NCBI GenBank assembly: GCA_016191115.1 | Contig: JACPPG010000052.1 | Coordinates: 162,810-226,809 of the forward strand | Source: Planctomycetia bacterium | Lineage (GTDB): Bacteria > Planctomycetota > Planctomycetia > Pirellulales > JACPPG01 | Length of the DNA stretch: 64,000 nucleotides | Direction: 5' to 3' | In this document: in pieces, positions 1,752-61,437 of the stretch | Layout: every line of letters starts with the position of its first letter | How positions within the stretch are numbered: the first letter of the stretch is position 1 | Program-made: the position numbers and the translations under genes | The notes under the pieces: generated by a model | Told to the model about the DNA's origin: nothing | What the model saw: the letters and a program-made list of their open reading frames with translations, nothing else | Database searches by the model: none

Positions 1752-3269
1752 ATGATTCGGCGATTTGCTCCACCGGCGGCGGCCGTGACCTTGTTGTGTC
1801 TTTGTGTGACCCTCGCTTACGGCGCGCCTCGTGGCAAGGAGGGCGAAAAATCGCGCGGCGGTAAGCCTCCGGGCGGAAGTCAGGCCGAGCGCAAACCCGA
1901 GGGAAGGGAGACTAACGAGAAGGCCGGCCGCAAGCCCTCGGATGAGCGCGAAGGAGAGCGCGGCACAAAACCGGCCGGCAACAAATCTCCGGGCGGAGAA
2001 TGGTCCGAGCGCACACATGGAGGGAAGTCCGGAGGGCAGCCCGGCCACGAGCGCGGCGAGTCCGCGGAAACCGGCGCGGCGACTGGTCGCACCGCTGGAG
2101 AAAAGAAGACGCCACAGGCGTCGGGAGCAGAGGGCGCTGCCGCCGCCAAGCGCAACGCACCGAAGGCGTCCGGGGCGGAGGGAGCCGCCACGGGTGCAGC
2201 CGCCGCCAATCGCAAGTCACCACAAGCGTCGGGCGCAGAGGGCGCAGCCGCCGGTGCAGCGGCCGCCAATCGCAACGCGCCGAAAGCGTCCGGTGCGGAG
2301 GGAGCCGCCGCTGGTGCCGCTGCGGCCAATCGAAATGCGCCGAAAACATCGGGTGCGGCGGGCGTAGCTGCCGGAGCAGCCGCCGCCAATCGCAACGCGC
2401 CAAAGGCTTCAGGCGCGGCAGGCGCGGCCGCGGGTGCAGCGGCTGCGAATCGTAACGCGCCTCAAGTTTCAGGCGCGGCCGGCGCGGCCGCAGGGGCCGC
2501 CGCCGCCAACCGCAACGCGCCACAGCTTTCGGGCGCGCAGGGTGCCGCCGCCGGCGCCGCCGCCGCCAATCGCAACGCGCCGCAAGCTTCGGGTGCGCAA
2601 GGGGCCGTCGCTGGCGCGGCGGCCGTGAGAAGCTCATTCAACCATCCGAACATTTACGGCCGGCAGTGGTACGATGCCCATCCGGGCGCTTGGGCGCCCT
2701 CCGGCTGGGCTGCCGGCGCGGCCTGGGCTGCGCCGACGTGGGCCGCCATCGCCGGTCATTGCGGATACGGCAATAGCGCCCCGATCTCGTACGACTACGG
2801 CGTCAACGTGACCGCCCAGGACGGCAACGTGATGGTGGACGGTCAGAATGTCGGAACGGTCGCGGAGTTCAGCCATCAAGCCGCCGATCTGGCCGAGACG
2901 GGCACCGAGGCCGACACCTCCGCCACCGAACAATGGTTGCCGGTGGGCGTGTTCGCGATGGTCCGCAACGAGCAGCAGCACCCGCAACTCATCGTGCAGT
3001 TGGCGATCAATAAGGAAGGCATCCTGCGGGGCAACTACACCGACGAAGTTACCGACAACACCCTGCCCATCCACGGCGCGGTCGACAAGGCGACGCAGCG
3101 GGCGGCATGGACGGTCGGCGGCAACAAGCAAACCGTCATGGAAGCAGGTCTGAGCGACCTGGCGGGAAACGAAGCGCCGGCGCTGATCCACAAGAACGGC
3201 AAGACCGACCACTGGCTGCTGGTTCGCCTGGAACAACCAAAACCGGGCGGGGACGACGCCGGAAAGTAA
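1752..3269 (+). CDS. secreted Ala-rich 20-residue-repeat protein
   Basis: A 505-residue protein with an N-terminal signal peptide (hydrophobic AAAVTLLCLCVTLAYGA at residues 8-25). A Lys/Gly/Glu/Pro-rich hydrophilic segment follows, then about nine 20-residue repeats of the type GAAAANRNAPKASGAEGAAA (residues 117-295). The C-terminal region of about 200 residues contains YGRQWYDAHPGAW and a compact domain (VNVTAQDGNVMVDGQNVGTV onwards). Similar planctomycete proteins carry names such as mu-protocadherin-like cell-surface protein, with no known function. The C-terminal domain without repeats probably holds the activity and the repeat acts as a flexible spacer; that is inference. Confidence 0.85.
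   Translation: MIRRFAPPAAAVTLLCLCVTLAYGAPRGKEGEKSRGGKPPGGSQAERKPEGRETNEKAGRKPSDEREGERGTKPAGNKSPGGEWSERTHGGKSGGQPGHERGESAETGAATGRTAGEKKTPQASGAEGAAAAKRNAPKASGAEGAATGAAAANRKSPQASGAEGAAAGAAAANRNAPKASGAEGAAAGAAAANRNAPKTSGAAGVAAGAAAANRNAPKASGAAGAAAGAAAANRNAPQVSGAAGAAAGAAAANRNAPQLSGAQGAAAGAAAANRNAPQASGAQGAVAGAAAVRSSFNHPNIYGRQWYDAHPGAWAPSGWAAGAAWAAPTWAAIAGHCGYGNSAPISYDYGVNVTAQDGNVMVDGQNVGTVAEFSHQAADLAETGTEADTSATEQWLPVGVFAMVRNEQQHPQLIVQLAINKEGILRGNYTDEVTDNTLPIHGAVDKATQRAAWTVGGNKQTVMEAGLSDLAGNEAPALIHKNGKTDHWLLVRLEQPKPGGDDAGK
2101..2640 (+). repeat. 60-bp coding minisatellite
   Basis: Nine consecutive blocks of 60 bp (the first one shorter) encode the Ala-rich repeats of the surrounding gene. The period is exactly 20 codons, so copy-number change keeps the frame. 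Third-position differences between units show the array is not newly amplified, although units around 2401-2580 are close to one another. Confidence 0.9.
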
Positions 3270-4492: not shown

Positions 4493-4631
4493 CAGGGCCG
4501 TTCACAGATTCAAGCTTGCCGGCGGCGCACCGGCGGGAAAGTGGGACAGGCACCGAGACGCAACGTTGGTCTGAAAGGGCTTGCGCTGTTTATGCTCGGA
4601 GCCAGTCCCATTTTCCCGCCTCGCCATTTTG
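4493..4631 (+). mobile_element. MITE family A, copy A1, right end lost
   Basis: It starts with CAGGGCCGTTCACAG like the other A copies and follows the consensus to CCATTTTG, where it diverges. The last 25 bp, including the right terminal repeat, are missing. A family B element lies 16 bp further right. No flanking duplication can be scored. Confidence 0.85.
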
Positions 4632-4647: not shown

Positions 4648-4769
4648 CAGGAGAACTGCAAAGTCCTGGGACAGGGGGTCAGGCACATTTTTCGGCCGAA
4701 GGTCCTTCGGAAGATGAGAACCGCATGTGCCGAAAAATGAGCCAGACCCCGGACTTTGCAGTTCTCCTG
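4648..4769. mobile_element. MITE-like element, family B
   Basis: A 122-bp element with perfect 19-bp terminal inverted repeats (CAGGAGAACTGCAAAGTCC at 4648-4666 and its complement at 4751-4769). It is flanked by TGCCGTGGC at 4639-4647 and 4771-4779, a 9-bp direct repeat, or 10 bp with one mismatch. Inner arms GGGGTCAGGCAC and GAGCCAGACCCC form a second imperfect stem. It has no coding capacity. Together with A1 it fills most of the gap between the LOG and STAS genes, in which I see no gene. Confidence 0.8.
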
Positions 4770-9448: not shown

Positions 9449-9606
9449 CAGGGCCGTTCACAGATTCAAGCTCGAACGGCGGCGCACCGGCGGGAAAGTG
9501 GGACAGGCACCGAGACGCAACGCTGGTCTGAAAGGACTTGCGCTGTTTATGCTCGGAGCCAGTCCCATTTTCCCGCCTCGCCATTTTGAAAAACAGAATG
9601 GCCCTG
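9449..9606 (+). mobile_element. MITE family A, copy A2
   Basis: A complete copy (158 bp) from CAGGGCCGTTC to GAATGGCCCTG, in the spacer between the convergent hypothetical and DUF4129 genes. The flanks (GAACCTTCTC and CTGTGTTCCC) do not form a target duplication, so this copy is old or recombined. Nothing else is recognisable in the 9282-9648 spacer. Confidence 0.9.
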
Positions 9607-14216: not shown

Positions 14217-14355
14217 CAGGGCCGTTCACAGATTTAAGCTGGCCGGCGGCGCACCGGCGGGAAAGTGGGACAGGCACCGAGACGCAACGTTGGTCTGAAA
14301 GGACTTGCGCTGTTTATGCTCGGAGCCAGTCCCATTTTCCCGCCTCGCCATTTTG
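14217..14355 (+). mobile_element. MITE family A, copy A3, hybrid with family B fragment
   Basis: It follows the A consensus from CAGGGCCGTTCACAG to CCATTTTG and then switches to about 50 bp (14357-14406) that match one arm of family B in inverted orientation (GTGCCTGACCCCC). Copies A1 and A3 break at the same internal position. The rest of the 14116-14494 spacer shows nothing else. Confidence 0.85.
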
Positions 14356-14494
14356 ATTCTGAAGGACCCTCGGCCGAAAAATGTGCCTGACCCCCTCTCC
14401 CAGGACAAGGCAAGCGGCCCGAGCTGCCCGACCGGATCGGCCGAGCCGCGGCTGCCACGGCCAAATGGCCTACCGATCACTTCGCCCGGCCGGC

Positions 14495-18129: not shown

Positions 18130-18549
18130 ATGGCGACCGTTGAAGCACCGGCCAAACACACGACGGGCGACTCGCTAGGGACCGGCCGCCGCAAGACATC
18201 GGTGGCGCGCGTTCGCGTCCGCGCCGGCAACGGCACCATCACCGTTAACGGTCGCTCGTTCGAATCGTTCTTCGTCCGTGAGCAGGATCGCAAGGCGGTG
18301 CTCGACCCGCTTGCGCAGACCGACCGCGTTGGCTCGGTCGACGTGAGCATCACCGTACACGGCGGCGGAATTACCGGCCAGGCCGGGGCTTGCAAACTGG
18401 GGATCGCGCGGGCCCTGAAGAAATACGACAGCGGCCTGGAAGACGCGCTGCGGCAAGGACACCTGTTGACGCGCGACAGCCGCATGAAAGAGCGGAAGAA
18501 GTACGGCCTGCGGGGTGCCCGGCGGGGCACGCAGTTCTCGAAGCGATAA
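18130..18549 (+). CDS. rpsI: 30S ribosomal protein S9
   Basis: 139 residues from the ATG at 18130; a GTG at 18088 would add 14 residues. S9 signatures are GTGRRKTSVARVRVRAGNGTITVNGR, VHGGGITGQAGACKLGIARAL, and the conserved C-terminal tail RDSRMKERKKYGLRGARRGTQFSKR, whose end reaches the P-site tRNA in known ribosomes. It is cotranscribed with rplM and followed by a large inverted repeat that can terminate the operon. Confidence 0.97.
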   Translation: MATVEAPAKHTTGDSLGTGRRKTSVARVRVRAGNGTITVNGRSFESFFVREQDRKAVLDPLAQTDRVGSVDVSITVHGGGITGQAGACKLGIARALKKYDSGLEDALRQGHLLTRDSRMKERKKYGLRGARRGTQFSKR

Positions 18550-18550
18550 T

Positions 18551-18688
18551 AATGACGAAGGTCGAAAGTCAAATGTCTAAAGAAATCCGAAATCCGAAGA
18601 TCGAATGACGAAGTGAAGATCCGCTTCGGGCCTTCGTCATTCGGTCATTCGGATTTCTTTAGACATTTGACTTTCGACATTCGTCATT
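18551..18688. terminator. long inverted repeat between convergent genes
   Basis: Arms of 41 bp at 18551-18591 and 18648-18688 pair with a single mismatch (AATGACGAAGGTCGAAAGTC against its complement). A nested pair GAATGACGAAG / CTTCGTCATTC lies inside. It begins 2 bp after the rpsI stop and ends 7 bp before the stop of the convergent oxidoreductase gene, so it can terminate from both sides. No U-tract is present. A sequence related to one arm recurs at 48115-48147. Confidence 0.7.
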
Positions 18689-18694
18689 CTCGCC

Positions 18695-19717
18695 TCACTT
18701 GCCCGCCGATGCCGCGGCCTGGGCCTTGTCCATCACGCTTTTGATCGTTACCGGCGCGCCCCCTTGCCGCTTGCTCTCGTCGGCCGCTTCCATGAAAGCG
18801 TATATCTCCAGCGTCTCCTCGGCACTGACCGGCGGCTTGCCGGTCTGGAAGAATTTCGCGATCTCGACCACTAGCGGTTGATAGCCCGCGTAGCTGCCGC
18901 TGGGCACGATCGCCTTCGAGCCGAAGACCACAGCGCCGTAGTCGTGCTTGCCGGCGCGGAGGCCGCGGAAGGTGCCGATGCGGCCCCCTTTCCATACGCC
19001 CACGACCAGCTCGCCCCCCTCGGTCTGCGTGCGAGACACGCTTTCGCAACCGGTGCCCATGATCGTGAACAGGGTCTCGACGCCATGGATGCCGTACCAG
19101 AACAAGTCGGGATGGTGCGGCTCGAGGGAGCACGGTCCGTACGCCGCGCACCCCAACACGTCCCCCACGCGCTCGTCGCCGCGCATGCCCAGGATGCCCG
19201 GGCTGAAGCGGAGCGAGGAGCTGGAGAAACACGGCACGTTCTTTTCCTTGGCCCGGCGGAAGATGGCGATCGCGTCGCCAAGCGTGCCGGCAACCGGCTT
19301 ATCGATGAACACCGGCTTGCCGGCGTTGATCACGGGGATGGCTTGCTTCAAATGCGGCCGGCCGTCGACGCTTTCCAGCAGCACCGCGTCGACCTTCGGC
19401 AAAAGCTCATCGATCGACCCGACGATCTGGACCCCCATGTCGCGCAATTCCTTGGTGTAGCCCTCGACCCGGTCGTGGCTCGAGGGGATGTCGGGGCTGC
19501 CGCCGGGAAAGGCGGCCACAACCTGCACCGCGGCCAGATCGCCCTTGCGGTCCGGATCGTTCATGGCCTTGGTGAAGGCGACGACGTGCGAGGTGTCGAG
19601 TCCGATGATGCCGACCTTGATCGGCTTGGCGGGATCGGCGGCGGTTGCGGTCGATGCGGTCATGGCGGCAAGAATCCCAATGGTCAGGCTGGCGAGCGGC
19701 AAAGAGCGACAAGTCAC
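18695..19717 (-). CDS. exported Gfo/Idh/MocA family oxidoreductase
   Basis: About 340 residues. A signal peptide (LPLASLTIGILAAMTASTATAAD) precedes the NAD-binding Rossmann domain (KPIKVGIIGLDTSHVVAF). The family EKP-like site appears as FIDKPVAGTLGDA, and the C-terminal beta-sheet domain follows. These enzymes oxidise or reduce sugars and inositols; planctomycetes have many exported ones. The GTG at 19717, 8 nt after GGGGGA, is preferred; a TTG at 19741 adds eight residues. It converges on rpsI. Confidence 0.88.
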   Translation of the reverse strand: MTCRSLPLASLTIGILAAMTASTATAADPAKPIKVGIIGLDTSHVVAFTKAMNDPDRKGDLAAVQVVAAFPGGSPDIPSSHDRVEGYTKELRDMGVQIVGSIDELLPKVDAVLLESVDGRPHLKQAIPVINAGKPVFIDKPVAGTLGDAIAIFRRAKEKNVPCFSSSSLRFSPGILGMRGDERVGDVLGCAAYGPCSLEPHHPDLFWYGIHGVETLFTIMGTGCESVSRTQTEGGELVVGVWKGGRIGTFRGLRAGKHDYGAVVFGSKAIVPSGSYAGYQPLVVEIAKFFQTGKPPVSAEETLEIYAFMEAADESKRQGGAPVTIKSVMDKAQAAASAGK

Positions 19718-19834
19718 GGTCAAATCCCCCGGGTGTGGCAAGAATCAGACTCGGCCGGCGGCTATTCTAGTAGAGCGGCAACCGAGATGATACGGTCCGT
19801 TGAGGCGACCGTGTTAGCCCCCGGTGACTCACCG

Positions 19835-19991
19835 CAGGGCCGTTCACAGATTCAAGCTGGACGGCGGGGCACCGGCGGGAAAGTGGGACAGGCACCGAGA
19901 CGCAACGTTGGTCTGAAAGGGCTTGCGCTGCTTATGCTCGGAGCCAGTCCCATTTTCCCGCCTCGCCATTTTGAAAAACAGAACGGCCCTG
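19835..19991 (+). mobile_element. MITE family A, copy A4, with 10-bp target duplication
   Basis: A complete 157-bp copy from CAGGGCCGTTC to GAACGGCCCTG. It is flanked by TGACTCACCG at 19825-19834 and 19992-20001, a perfect 10-bp duplication, or 11 bp if the terminal G is counted. It ends 66 bp before the TPR gene start. This copy directly proves insertion by transposition. The remaining spacer (19718-20057) holds nothing else I recognise. Confidence 0.95.
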
Positions 19992-20057
19992 TGACTCACC
20001 GGGGGCTGAGAGCAGCGTCGCTCAGCGGAAATCGACGTTCAACCGGAGCGACCGACC

Positions 20058-23924: not shown

Positions 23925-24081
23925 CAGGGCCGTTCACAGATTCAAGCTTGCCGGCGGCGCACCGGCGGGAAAGTGGGACAGGCACCGAGACGCAGTGTTG
24001 GTATGAAAGGGCTTGCGCTGTTTGTGCTCGGAGCCAGTCCCATTTTCCCGCCTCGCCATTTTGAAAAACAGAATGGCCCTG
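23925..24081 (+). mobile_element. MITE family A, copy A5
   Basis: A complete 157-bp copy from CAGGGCCGTTC to GAATGGCCCTG. The flanks (GTTCGGACGC and GGGCGGAGTG) show no clear target duplication. It sits between the divergent rsfS and PVC-type cytochrome genes, 57 bp from the ATG at 24139. The rest of the 23724-24138 gap has no recognisable gene. Confidence 0.92.
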
Positions 24082-46678: not shown

Positions 46679-47439
46679 GCCTGCTTCGCGCATGGATCAC
46701 GCTGGTGTGGTTGTCGTTTCGCCGGCTGCTCTGGTCCGGCAGCACGTTGATGGTGCTTCTGCCCATCGCGGCGTGCACGCTTTTCATATTGCGGTGGCGC
46801 TTCCGGCTGGAAGGGGGCTCGTTCGAGTCCTTCAACGCCTTCAGCCTGTTCTTGATGTTCGCGTTCGCCTCGTTCGTCGTGCCGATCTGCGCGGTGGCGT
46901 ATGGCACGGCCAGCATCGGCGGCGACCGAGAGGACCGGACGCTATTGTTCCTGCTAGTGCGGCCCGTGCCCCGGCCACTGGTCTTTTTTGCCAAGTTCTT
47001 CGCCACGCTTCCCTTGGCGCTCGGGCTGGTGATGGGCGCCTTTTGGCTCTATTGCCAGTTGGCGGGTGAAATCGGGGCGCTGGCGTATTCCCTCTACCTG
47101 CCGGCGATCTTCTACATGACGATCGCCTATGTCAGCTTGTTTCACTTCTTCGCTGTGTCGTTTCGGCACTCGACGATTATCGCGCTCATCTACGCACTGT
47201 TTATCGAGATCGTGCTGGGCAATCTGCCGGGCATCGTCAAACGCGTGGCCATCAACTACTACGGCCGCTCGATGATGTACGCGGCGGGCGTGCCCGAGGG
47301 GCTCGAACGGCCCGACGCGCAATGGTTCGAGCCAATCTCCGCGACCACGAGCGCCGCGGCGCTCGCGGGCATCACGCTCGTGGCGCTATTGGTGGCGCTG
47401 GTCGTCTTCCAGCGACGCGAGTACACCGACCTGACGTGA
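46675..47439 (+). CDS. ABC-2 type permease (second)
   Basis: 254 residues with about six transmembrane segments. DREDRTLLFLLVRPVPRPLVFFAKFFATL is the cytoplasmic loop typical of ABC-2 permeases. The start overlaps the ATPase stop in an ATGA, so translation is coupled. It ends the operon, and the next gene, the broken SDR, runs towards it. Confidence 0.88.
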   Translation: MSLLRAWITLVWLSFRRLLWSGSTLMVLLPIAACTLFILRWRFRLEGGSFESFNAFSLFLMFAFASFVVPICAVAYGTASIGGDREDRTLLFLLVRPVPRPLVFFAKFFATLPLALGLVMGAFWLYCQLAGEIGALAYSLYLPAIFYMTIAYVSLFHFFAVSFRHSTIIALIYALFIEIVLGNLPGIVKRVAINYYGRSMMYAAGVPEGLERPDAQWFEPISATTSAAALAGITLVALLVALVVFQRREYTDLT

Positions 47440-47477
47440 GAAAGAGTGGGTGTTTCCAAACCGCCCGCGGGGCCCAT

Positions 47478-47870
47478 TCATCCTCTCTTCTCCGCCTCCT
47501 TCCGCGTCCGATACGCCGCCTGGCGTTTGCGCCCATCCTTGAGCATCGAGCCCAAGAGCAACGCCTCGGTGGCCGGGGCCAGGCTCGTCAAGTTCGCCAG
47601 CCAGCCGCGGTGCCGCGGAATCAGCACCTCGAGCGGCCGCCTCGATTGCGCTCGGTTCAACACCGCGTCCGCTACGTCGTCCACCGTCAGGAGGCGCCGC
47701 GCCGTGAACGCCAGCGCCGCCGCGTCGTGCGACATTTCCAGGTCGAGCATGGGCGTCTCGGCCGCGTCGGGGCACACGCAGGTGGCGCTCACGCCGTGCG
47801 GACGCAACTCGTGCGCCACCGCCAGCGAAAACCCCCGCACCGCGAATTTCGACGCCCCCAGCTTGCAAGC
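47478..47870 (-). pseudogene. short-chain dehydrogenase, 5' half lost at a MITE
   Basis: About 130 codons of an SDR C-terminal half remain: LGASKFAVRGFSLAVAHELRPHGV, TCVCPDAAETPM, RRLLTVDDVADAVL. In SDRs the segment should read YGASKFA with the catalytic Tyr; here the reading frame runs out of MITE copy A6 exactly at the Tyr codon. The nucleotide-binding half with GxxxGxG is absent, and nothing like it lies on the other side of the element. The 219-residue ORF in the track is a fusion through the MITE, so the protein would be inactive. Confidence 0.85.
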
Positions 47871-48004
47871 TTGCCGGCGGCGCACCGGCGGGAAAGTGGG
47901 ACAGGCACCGAGACGCAACGTTGGTCTGAAAGGCCTTGCGCTGTTTATGCTCGGAGCCAGTCCCATTTTCCCGCCTCGCCATTTTGAAAAACAGAATGGC
48001 CCTG
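47866..48004 (+). mobile_element. MITE family A, copy A6, left end lost, in SDR pseudogene
   Basis: It matches the consensus from CAAGCTTGCCGGCGG to GAATGGCCCTG but lacks the first 18 bp, including the left terminal repeat. Its left boundary is the break in the SDR gene. The missing end and the missing gene half suggest one deletion that started inside the element. It ends 163 bp before the M48 peptidase start. Confidence 0.9.
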
Positions 48005-48167
48005 GGCAATCGCCGCGGCGGCTGGCTTCCGGCGAATCCTCGGCTACCATTGAGGCATCGCCCGCAAGCCCGTCGCCCCGGCGGGCCACGGCTGCGGGCA
48101 CGTCTCTCATGTCCGTTTGACATTCCGATTTCGACATCCGTCATTCTCTCCCGAGGTGGAGGCTGCC

Positions 48168-55124: not shown

Positions 55125-55221
55125 GCGGCCTCGGAGGGGGCTTGGCATCCGTGCGCATTCTTCACCGGCGCGGTGCATTATAGGCGTTTGTTCCCTTTCG
55201 CGTCCCACGCCGTGGCGAGCG

Positions 55222-55378
55222 CAGGGTCATTCTGTTTTTCAAAATGGCGAGGCGGGAAAATGGGACTGGCTCCGAGCATAAACGGCGCAAGTCCTTTCAG
55301 ACCAACGTTGCGTCTCGGTGCCTGTCCCACTTTCCCGCCGGTGCGCCGCCGGCAAGCTTAAATCTGTGAACGGCCCTG
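55222..55378 (-). mobile_element. MITE family A, copy A7, with 10-bp target duplication
   Basis: A complete 157-bp copy in reverse orientation, from CAGGGTCATTCTG to GAACGGCCCTG read on the plus strand. It is flanked by GTGGCGAGCG at 55212-55221 and 55379-55388, a perfect 10-bp duplication. It sits between the divergent NYN and mfd genes, 65 bp upstream of the mfd start. The rest of the 55125-55443 gap has no other visible element. Confidence 0.95.
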
Positions 55379-55443
55379 GTGGCGAGCGCCCCAAAGCCGC
55401 TCTTTGCCGCGCGGCCCCTGCGGACTAGAATCCCCATGAACGC

Positions 55444-61012: not shown

Positions 61013-61185
61013 GCGACACGACGCGCCACGGGCACAAACTCCACGCAGCTTGCGGTATCGTCAGGATCGCGCACCGTCTGCCGCCCAAGTCGGTTCCTGA
61101 CCGCCTACGGCACGCGGCTGAGGCCTTGTTCGACTACACTATAAGTGTGAGCGATAGAGAATGCCGGCCACGTTCTCTTGCGACC

Positions 61186-61342
61186 CAGGGCCATTCTGTT
61201 TTTCAAAATGGCGAGGCGGGAAAATGGGACTGGCTCCGAACATAAACAGCGCAAGCCCTTTCAGACCAACGTTTCGTCTCGGTGCCTGTCCCACTTTCCC
61301 GCCGGTGCGTCGCCGGCAAGCTTGAATCTGTGAACGGCCCTG
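61186..61342 (-). mobile_element. MITE family A, copy A8, with 11-bp target duplication
   Basis: A complete 157-bp copy in reverse orientation (CAGGGCCATTCTG to GAACGGCCCTG on the plus strand). It is flanked by CTCTTGCGACC at 61175-61185 and 61343-61353, a perfect 11-bp duplication. It ends 95 bp before the citrate synthase start. The rest of the 61013-61437 gap shows nothing else I recognise. Confidence 0.95.
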
Positions 61343-61437
61343 CTCTTGCGACCGCCGTGAATTGTAGAATGAAGGCCAGGCCGCTACACTGCATTCGCTA
61401 GGCCGGTCTTTCCGCCCTGAGTTCCGGAGCGTTCTGC

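Follow-up and report, generated by a model that had tools for sequence, protein, structure and literature searches.

A high-copy MITE with ISAs1-like ends in a planctomycete genome

Several families of short, non-coding repeats with terminal inverted repeats are dispersed at high copy number in bacterial genomes as MITEs, among them ERIC, Correia, Chunjie and QMITE2 (PMC10969869). ERIC reaches 711 copies in the case of Photorhabdus, partial copies are numerous in both Chunjie and QMITE2, and QMITE2 of Coxiella displays clustered losses at its 5' end (PMC10969869). The element described here, MITE A, differs from these four in its end sequences, in having a probable ISAs1 parent and a 10-bp target duplication, and in partial copies that appear to be largely an effect of assembly.

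The ISAs1 family itself (NF033564; PF13808 plus PF01609) shares with MITE A the outer ends CAGGGC(C/G/A) and an exact 10-bp duplication. However, ISAs1 elements are ∼1.26 kb in length, whereas MITE A measures 157 bp and carries no transposase gene, and the intact ISAs1 elements that we found have inner ends that differ from those of MITE A. A third likeness is to REP/BIME repeats and to stand-alone GGGACWGGCWCC hairpins, since the core of MITE A has the same GGGACAGGCACC / GGAGCCAGTCCC arms, but REPs have neither the DDE-type ends nor the target duplications of MITE A. In the open papers covered by our searches, no ISAs1-derived MITE like this one is described. Judged by its sequence, MITE A is an unusually abundant representative of a known type of element, a putative ISAs1-family MITE.

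Structure and abundance of MITE A

MITE A is bounded by sharp inverted repeats, CAGGGCC(G/A)TTC and its complement, and its 157 bp are too short for a transposase gene, in agreement with the initial annotation, which had assigned it no coding capacity. As DNA, the element folds into a single long hairpin (z = −5.5), the core of which is a strong imperfect hairpin with arms GGGACAGGCACC ... GGAGCCAGTCCC. This centre matches stand-alone hairpins in two genomes, G024 and G020, and MITE A may consist of ISAs1 ends placed around such a hairpin. The stand-alone hairpins with GGGACWGGCWCC arms (L010, L011, L013, L014 and L015, near position 1501) have an outer stem that varies among copies and is complementary within each copy. 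Several of them directly follow stop codons, a placement that would suit a structured RNA or a bidirectional terminator.

The window analyzed here is a stretch of 64,000 nucleotides (Table 1). All eight copies that the initial annotation had listed are present where it placed them, but only five reach the 157 bp attributed to the element, and the other three are one-ended in the assembly, lacking ∼18 bp at the left or right, probably through a fault of assembly. Among the five full copies, A4, A7 and A8 carry the perfect flanking repeats that had been pointed out, which are exact in sequence, and A2 and A5 have none.

Table 1. Copies of MITE A, target duplications and element B in the 64,000-nt window.
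Feature	Position	Strand	Remarks
A1	4493..4631	+	Only MITE A positions 1-139 present, without the right end; probable assembly artefact
Element B	4648..4769	+	Second dispersed repeat, 122 bp; MITE A is often inserted next to its ends
A2	9449..9606	+	Full length; no duplication
A3	14217..14356	+	Only MITE A positions 1-140 present, without the right end; probable assembly artefact
A4 left target duplication	19825..19834	+	TGACTCACCG, exact repeat
A4 (copy under study)	19835..19991	+	Full length, 157 bp
A4 right target duplication	19992..20001	+	TGACTCACCG, exact repeat
A5	23925..24081	+	Full length; no duplication; flanks apart in compared relatives
A6	47866..48004	+	Only MITE A positions 19-157 present, without the left end; abuts half of an SDR-like gene
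A7 left target duplication	55212..55221	+	GTGGCGAGCG, exact repeat
A7	55222..55378	-	Full length
A7 right target duplication	55379..55388	+	GTGGCGAGCG, exact repeat
A8 left target duplication	61175..61185	+	CTCTTGCGACC, 11 bp, exact repeat
A8	61186..61342	-	Full length
A8 right target duplication	61343..61353	+	CTCTTGCGACC, 11 bp, exact repeat

The home genome comprises 6.03 Mb in 93 contigs, and copies were counted in 1.99 Mb of it, the window included. This sample holds 165 copies, made up of 101 full copies, 62 one-ended copies and 2 fragments. Extrapolation to the whole genome yields ∼500 copies, or ∼1 copy per 12 kb, which bears out the earlier estimate of hundreds. A pattern requiring both ends with 110-135 bp between them has 134 forward-strand matches in the whole genome, and the reversed control pattern has 0.

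In the stretch 47386-48144, the C-terminal half of the SDR-like gene abuts the truncated end of A6, and the N-terminal half is absent from the other side. The split gene reflects either a rearrangement or a misassembly.

Target duplications and the ISAs1 family

Exact, unshifted direct repeats flank many of the 101 full copies, with lengths of 10 bp in 49 cases, 11 bp in 5 and 9 bp in 2. If up to one mismatch is allowed, an unshifted 10-bp repeat is found at 66 of the 101, compared with 0.045 on average for shuffled pairings of left and right flanks. With a small shift at the element end also permitted, 83 of 101 copies have a repeat of 9-11 bp, leaving 18 without a duplication. The duplication of MITE A is 10 bp in length, and longer ones such as that at A8 are rare. 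Thus, the duplications of 10-11 bp in the initial annotation are real, but 10 bp is the rule genome-wide. Their length had also been considered unusual for a MITE and indicative of few families, such as IS4-type elements. The length is not surprising in itself, because 10 bp is ordinary in ISAs1, the best-supported family, and ISAs1 elements of the same order make exactly this duplication.

Among the ISAs1-family elements of the same order, ten scored loci, nine of them distinct, combine CAGGGC at both ends with an exact 10-bp duplication. Ends beginning CAGGGC occur in L115, L117, L132, L110, L232, L240, L246, L247 and L249. In L120 and L231 they extend to CAGGGCC, the terminus by which a parental insertion sequence had been expected to be recognizable. 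The intact element L115 scores 416 bits against the ISAs1 model NF033564 and matches PF13808 and PF01609 as well. The closest resemblance to MITE A is seen in L129, a degenerate ISAs1 copy in genome G032 (1167-1862) that exceeds the cut-off for PF13808 and has a transposase fragment with only a weak match to the ISAs1 model. Its ends, CAGGGCTATTCGCTTATTCAAGTT and CAGGGCTATTCGCCGATTCAGGTT, are each identical at 19 of 24 positions to the MITE end variant CAGGGCCATTCACAGATTCAAGCT. This likeness takes in most of the inner ATTCAAG block and, given CAGGGC, would arise by chance with a probability of ∼1e-5. A protein search of 397 genomes with the L129 fragment returned one strong match, in its own genome, and weak ones in three others, and the fragment had no match in contig and plasmid searches. 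A pattern for similar ends applied to 392 genomes had three outside matches, which look like chance.

Traces of ISAs1 are also present in the home genome. Three contigs carry the ISAs1 end CAGGGCGATTGCGCCACAATAGGC close to their termini, with bodies unassembled. Because the flanks differ, at least three ISAs1 copies must be present. In addition, contig C87 carries an ISAs1 C-terminal remnant. These home-genome ends are alike to the MITE end at only 12 of 24 positions.

The assembled home genome contains no intact ISAs1 transposase, which leaves room for a mover from the IS4 family proper or from another DDE family with long duplications, the CAGGGC likeness then being convergence. The PF01609-type DDE fold is common to ISAs1 and IS4 transposases, and L115 itself weakly matches the IS4, IS1380 and IS701 models. 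Nonetheless, a PF01609 search of the assembled genome was empty, although collapsed repeats could hide such a gene, and ISAs1 pieces are there. The ISAs1 elements of the order moreover join the CAGGGC end to a duplication of exactly 10 bp, and L129 stretches the likeness to 19 of 24 positions. Such a mover is therefore unlikely.

The fold of MITE A raises a different candidate, a REP/BIME-type hairpin spread by a RAYT (Y1 transposase) rather than a DDE element. The strong hairpin of the core, the similar hairpins that stand alone in relatives and three Y1_Tnp genes in the home genome are all compatible with such an origin. Y1 transposases, however, make no target duplications, and duplications of 9-11 bp accompany 83 of the 101 full copies of an element whose ends are sharp inverted repeats. 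We consider a RAYT origin highly improbable.

MITE A is very probably a non-autonomous ISAs1-family element that was moved in trans by an ISAs1-family transposase, presumably with a 10-bp stagger, and multiplied in a lineage-specific burst. The earlier proposal of a mobile element served by a transposase in trans is supported by the duplications, the ∼500 copies, the absence from congeners and the ISAs1-like ends. An ISAs1-type DDE transposase, presumably supplied by one particular ISAs1 element, would recognize the terminal repeats of MITE A, namely CAGGGCC(G/A)TTC and perhaps the inner TTCAA/TTGAA block ∼17-21 bp from each end. The 157-bp element would then be inserted at a putative staggered cut of 10 bp, and gap filling would produce the 10-bp duplication.

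One-ended copies and the assembly

The 62 one-ended copies in the 1.99 Mb lose sequence from either end, with losses clustering at 16-20 bp. These copies look mostly like an artefact of assembly at k = 141, for four reasons. First, different contig ends have stretches of 134-141 bp in common, exactly 141 bp in two pairs. Second, the contigs C92, C2, C55 and C42 have a terminus within MITE A and retain 139-141 bp of it. Third, the 101 full copies all differ from one another, and no two have an exact shared run of more than 143 bp. Fourth, core divergence is lower in one-ended copies than in full ones, with medians of 0.9% and 2.8% (p = 4e-8). Identical 157-bp copies cannot be crossed at k = 141, so near-identical copies would come out one-ended. 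For the few one-ended copies that look divergent, this explanation holds only if they have partners in the two thirds of the genome outside the sample. Some of the full copies without a duplication may likewise be due to the assembly.

Could the losses instead be real, with integration or later processing taking ∼18 bp off one end at a constant distance? The tight clustering of the losses, the target motif retained on the intact side and the syntenic flanks of several one-ended copies in relatives would suit such a process, and clustered 5' losses are on record for QMITE2 of Coxiella (PMC10969869). Given the shared contig-end lengths, the contigs that break inside the element, the distinctness of the full copies and the low divergence of the one-ended ones, we regard real loss as improbable. 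A specific form of it, in which the transposase or host repair trims a nearly fixed ∼18 bp up to the inner CAA/TTG block in more than one third of copies, is if anything a little less probable still. If true, such end trimming would be an integration outcome of which we know no description.

Three routes of end loss, namely cutting by the transposase, slippage deletion between CAA and CAA, and resection to the hairpin, were set aside on the basis of the identical lengths retained at contig ends, the limit on shared runs and the lower divergence. Assembly at k = 141 remains our preferred explanation, and it carries a caution for draft genomes, in which one-ended MITEs and missing duplications can stem from short-read assembly at this k and not from biology. 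In G000, the ends of contigs C83, C86, C60, C2, C47, C1, C91 and C42 share 134-141 bp and represent several collapsed multi-copy elements.

Target sites, element B and related genomes

Alignment of the 83 duplicated sites reveals a weak, symmetric target motif, CAA-N8-[10 bp]-N8-TTG, which was first seen with 49 sites. On the left, 11 to 9 bp out from the duplication, C, A and A are present at 55%, 49% and 48%, respectively, and the mirrored positions on the right have T, T and G at 39%, 40% and 51%. Exact CAA occurs 17 times and exact TTG 18 times among the 83 sites, whereas base composition predicts ∼0.8 of each. Insertion by the putative ISAs1-type transposase would follow this preference. 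The motif is not clearly evident in the small sample of ISAs1 elements, and the MITE A sites provide a large set from which ISAs1-type target choice could be read.

MITE A also tends to lie beside element B, which has inverted ends of ∼19 bp, CAGGAGAACTGCAAAGTCC, and an inner pair, GTGCCTGACCCC / GAGCCAGACCCC. There are 45 element B loci in the 1.99 Mb sampled, and nine copies of MITE A lie 9-18 bp from an element B end, compared with 0.16 expected. The end of element B has CAG at the place of the motif's CAA, which may explain the attraction.

MITE A was not found in four genomes of the same genus. The spacer that holds A4 is without the element in three of these four congeners, and between aligned blocks it spans 384-491 bases in the home genome, once the element and one duplication are subtracted, versus 420-505 in the relatives. 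At A1, the G004 spacer aligns right across the insertion point. Thus, the empty sites that were anticipated in relatives exist as orthologous spacers lacking the element, but at ∼70-80% identity to the nearest genomes compared the spacers are too diverged for empty sites to be resolved to the single base. A search for interrupted genes by joining the flanks of copies gave no convincing case with a clean empty site.

Taken as a MITE, the element is short and non-coding, with inverted ends, a duplication of constant length, a high copy number and absence from the orthologous spacers of relatives. We propose that it burst to ∼500 copies in one lineage after the split from the known congeners. This would be a clear MITE burst tied to a named transposase family, one lineage carrying ∼1 copy per 12 kb and no copy having been found in four congeners.

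Several other features of the region were noted. The gene content, a DUF7133 protein for instance, points to a planctomycete host. Synteny with the congeners breaks at a REP-like repeat (18549-18707) and at A3 and A5. The Y1 (IS200/RAYT-type) transposase genes L076, L077 and L078, on contigs C42 and C68, are possible partners of REP-like repeats. An Rfam search of the window returned no family matches. The open reading frame at 1752-3269 has no match in Pfam and contains eight tandem 60-bp repeats (2067-2683) that are 60-80% alike and correspond to a 20-residue protein repeat.
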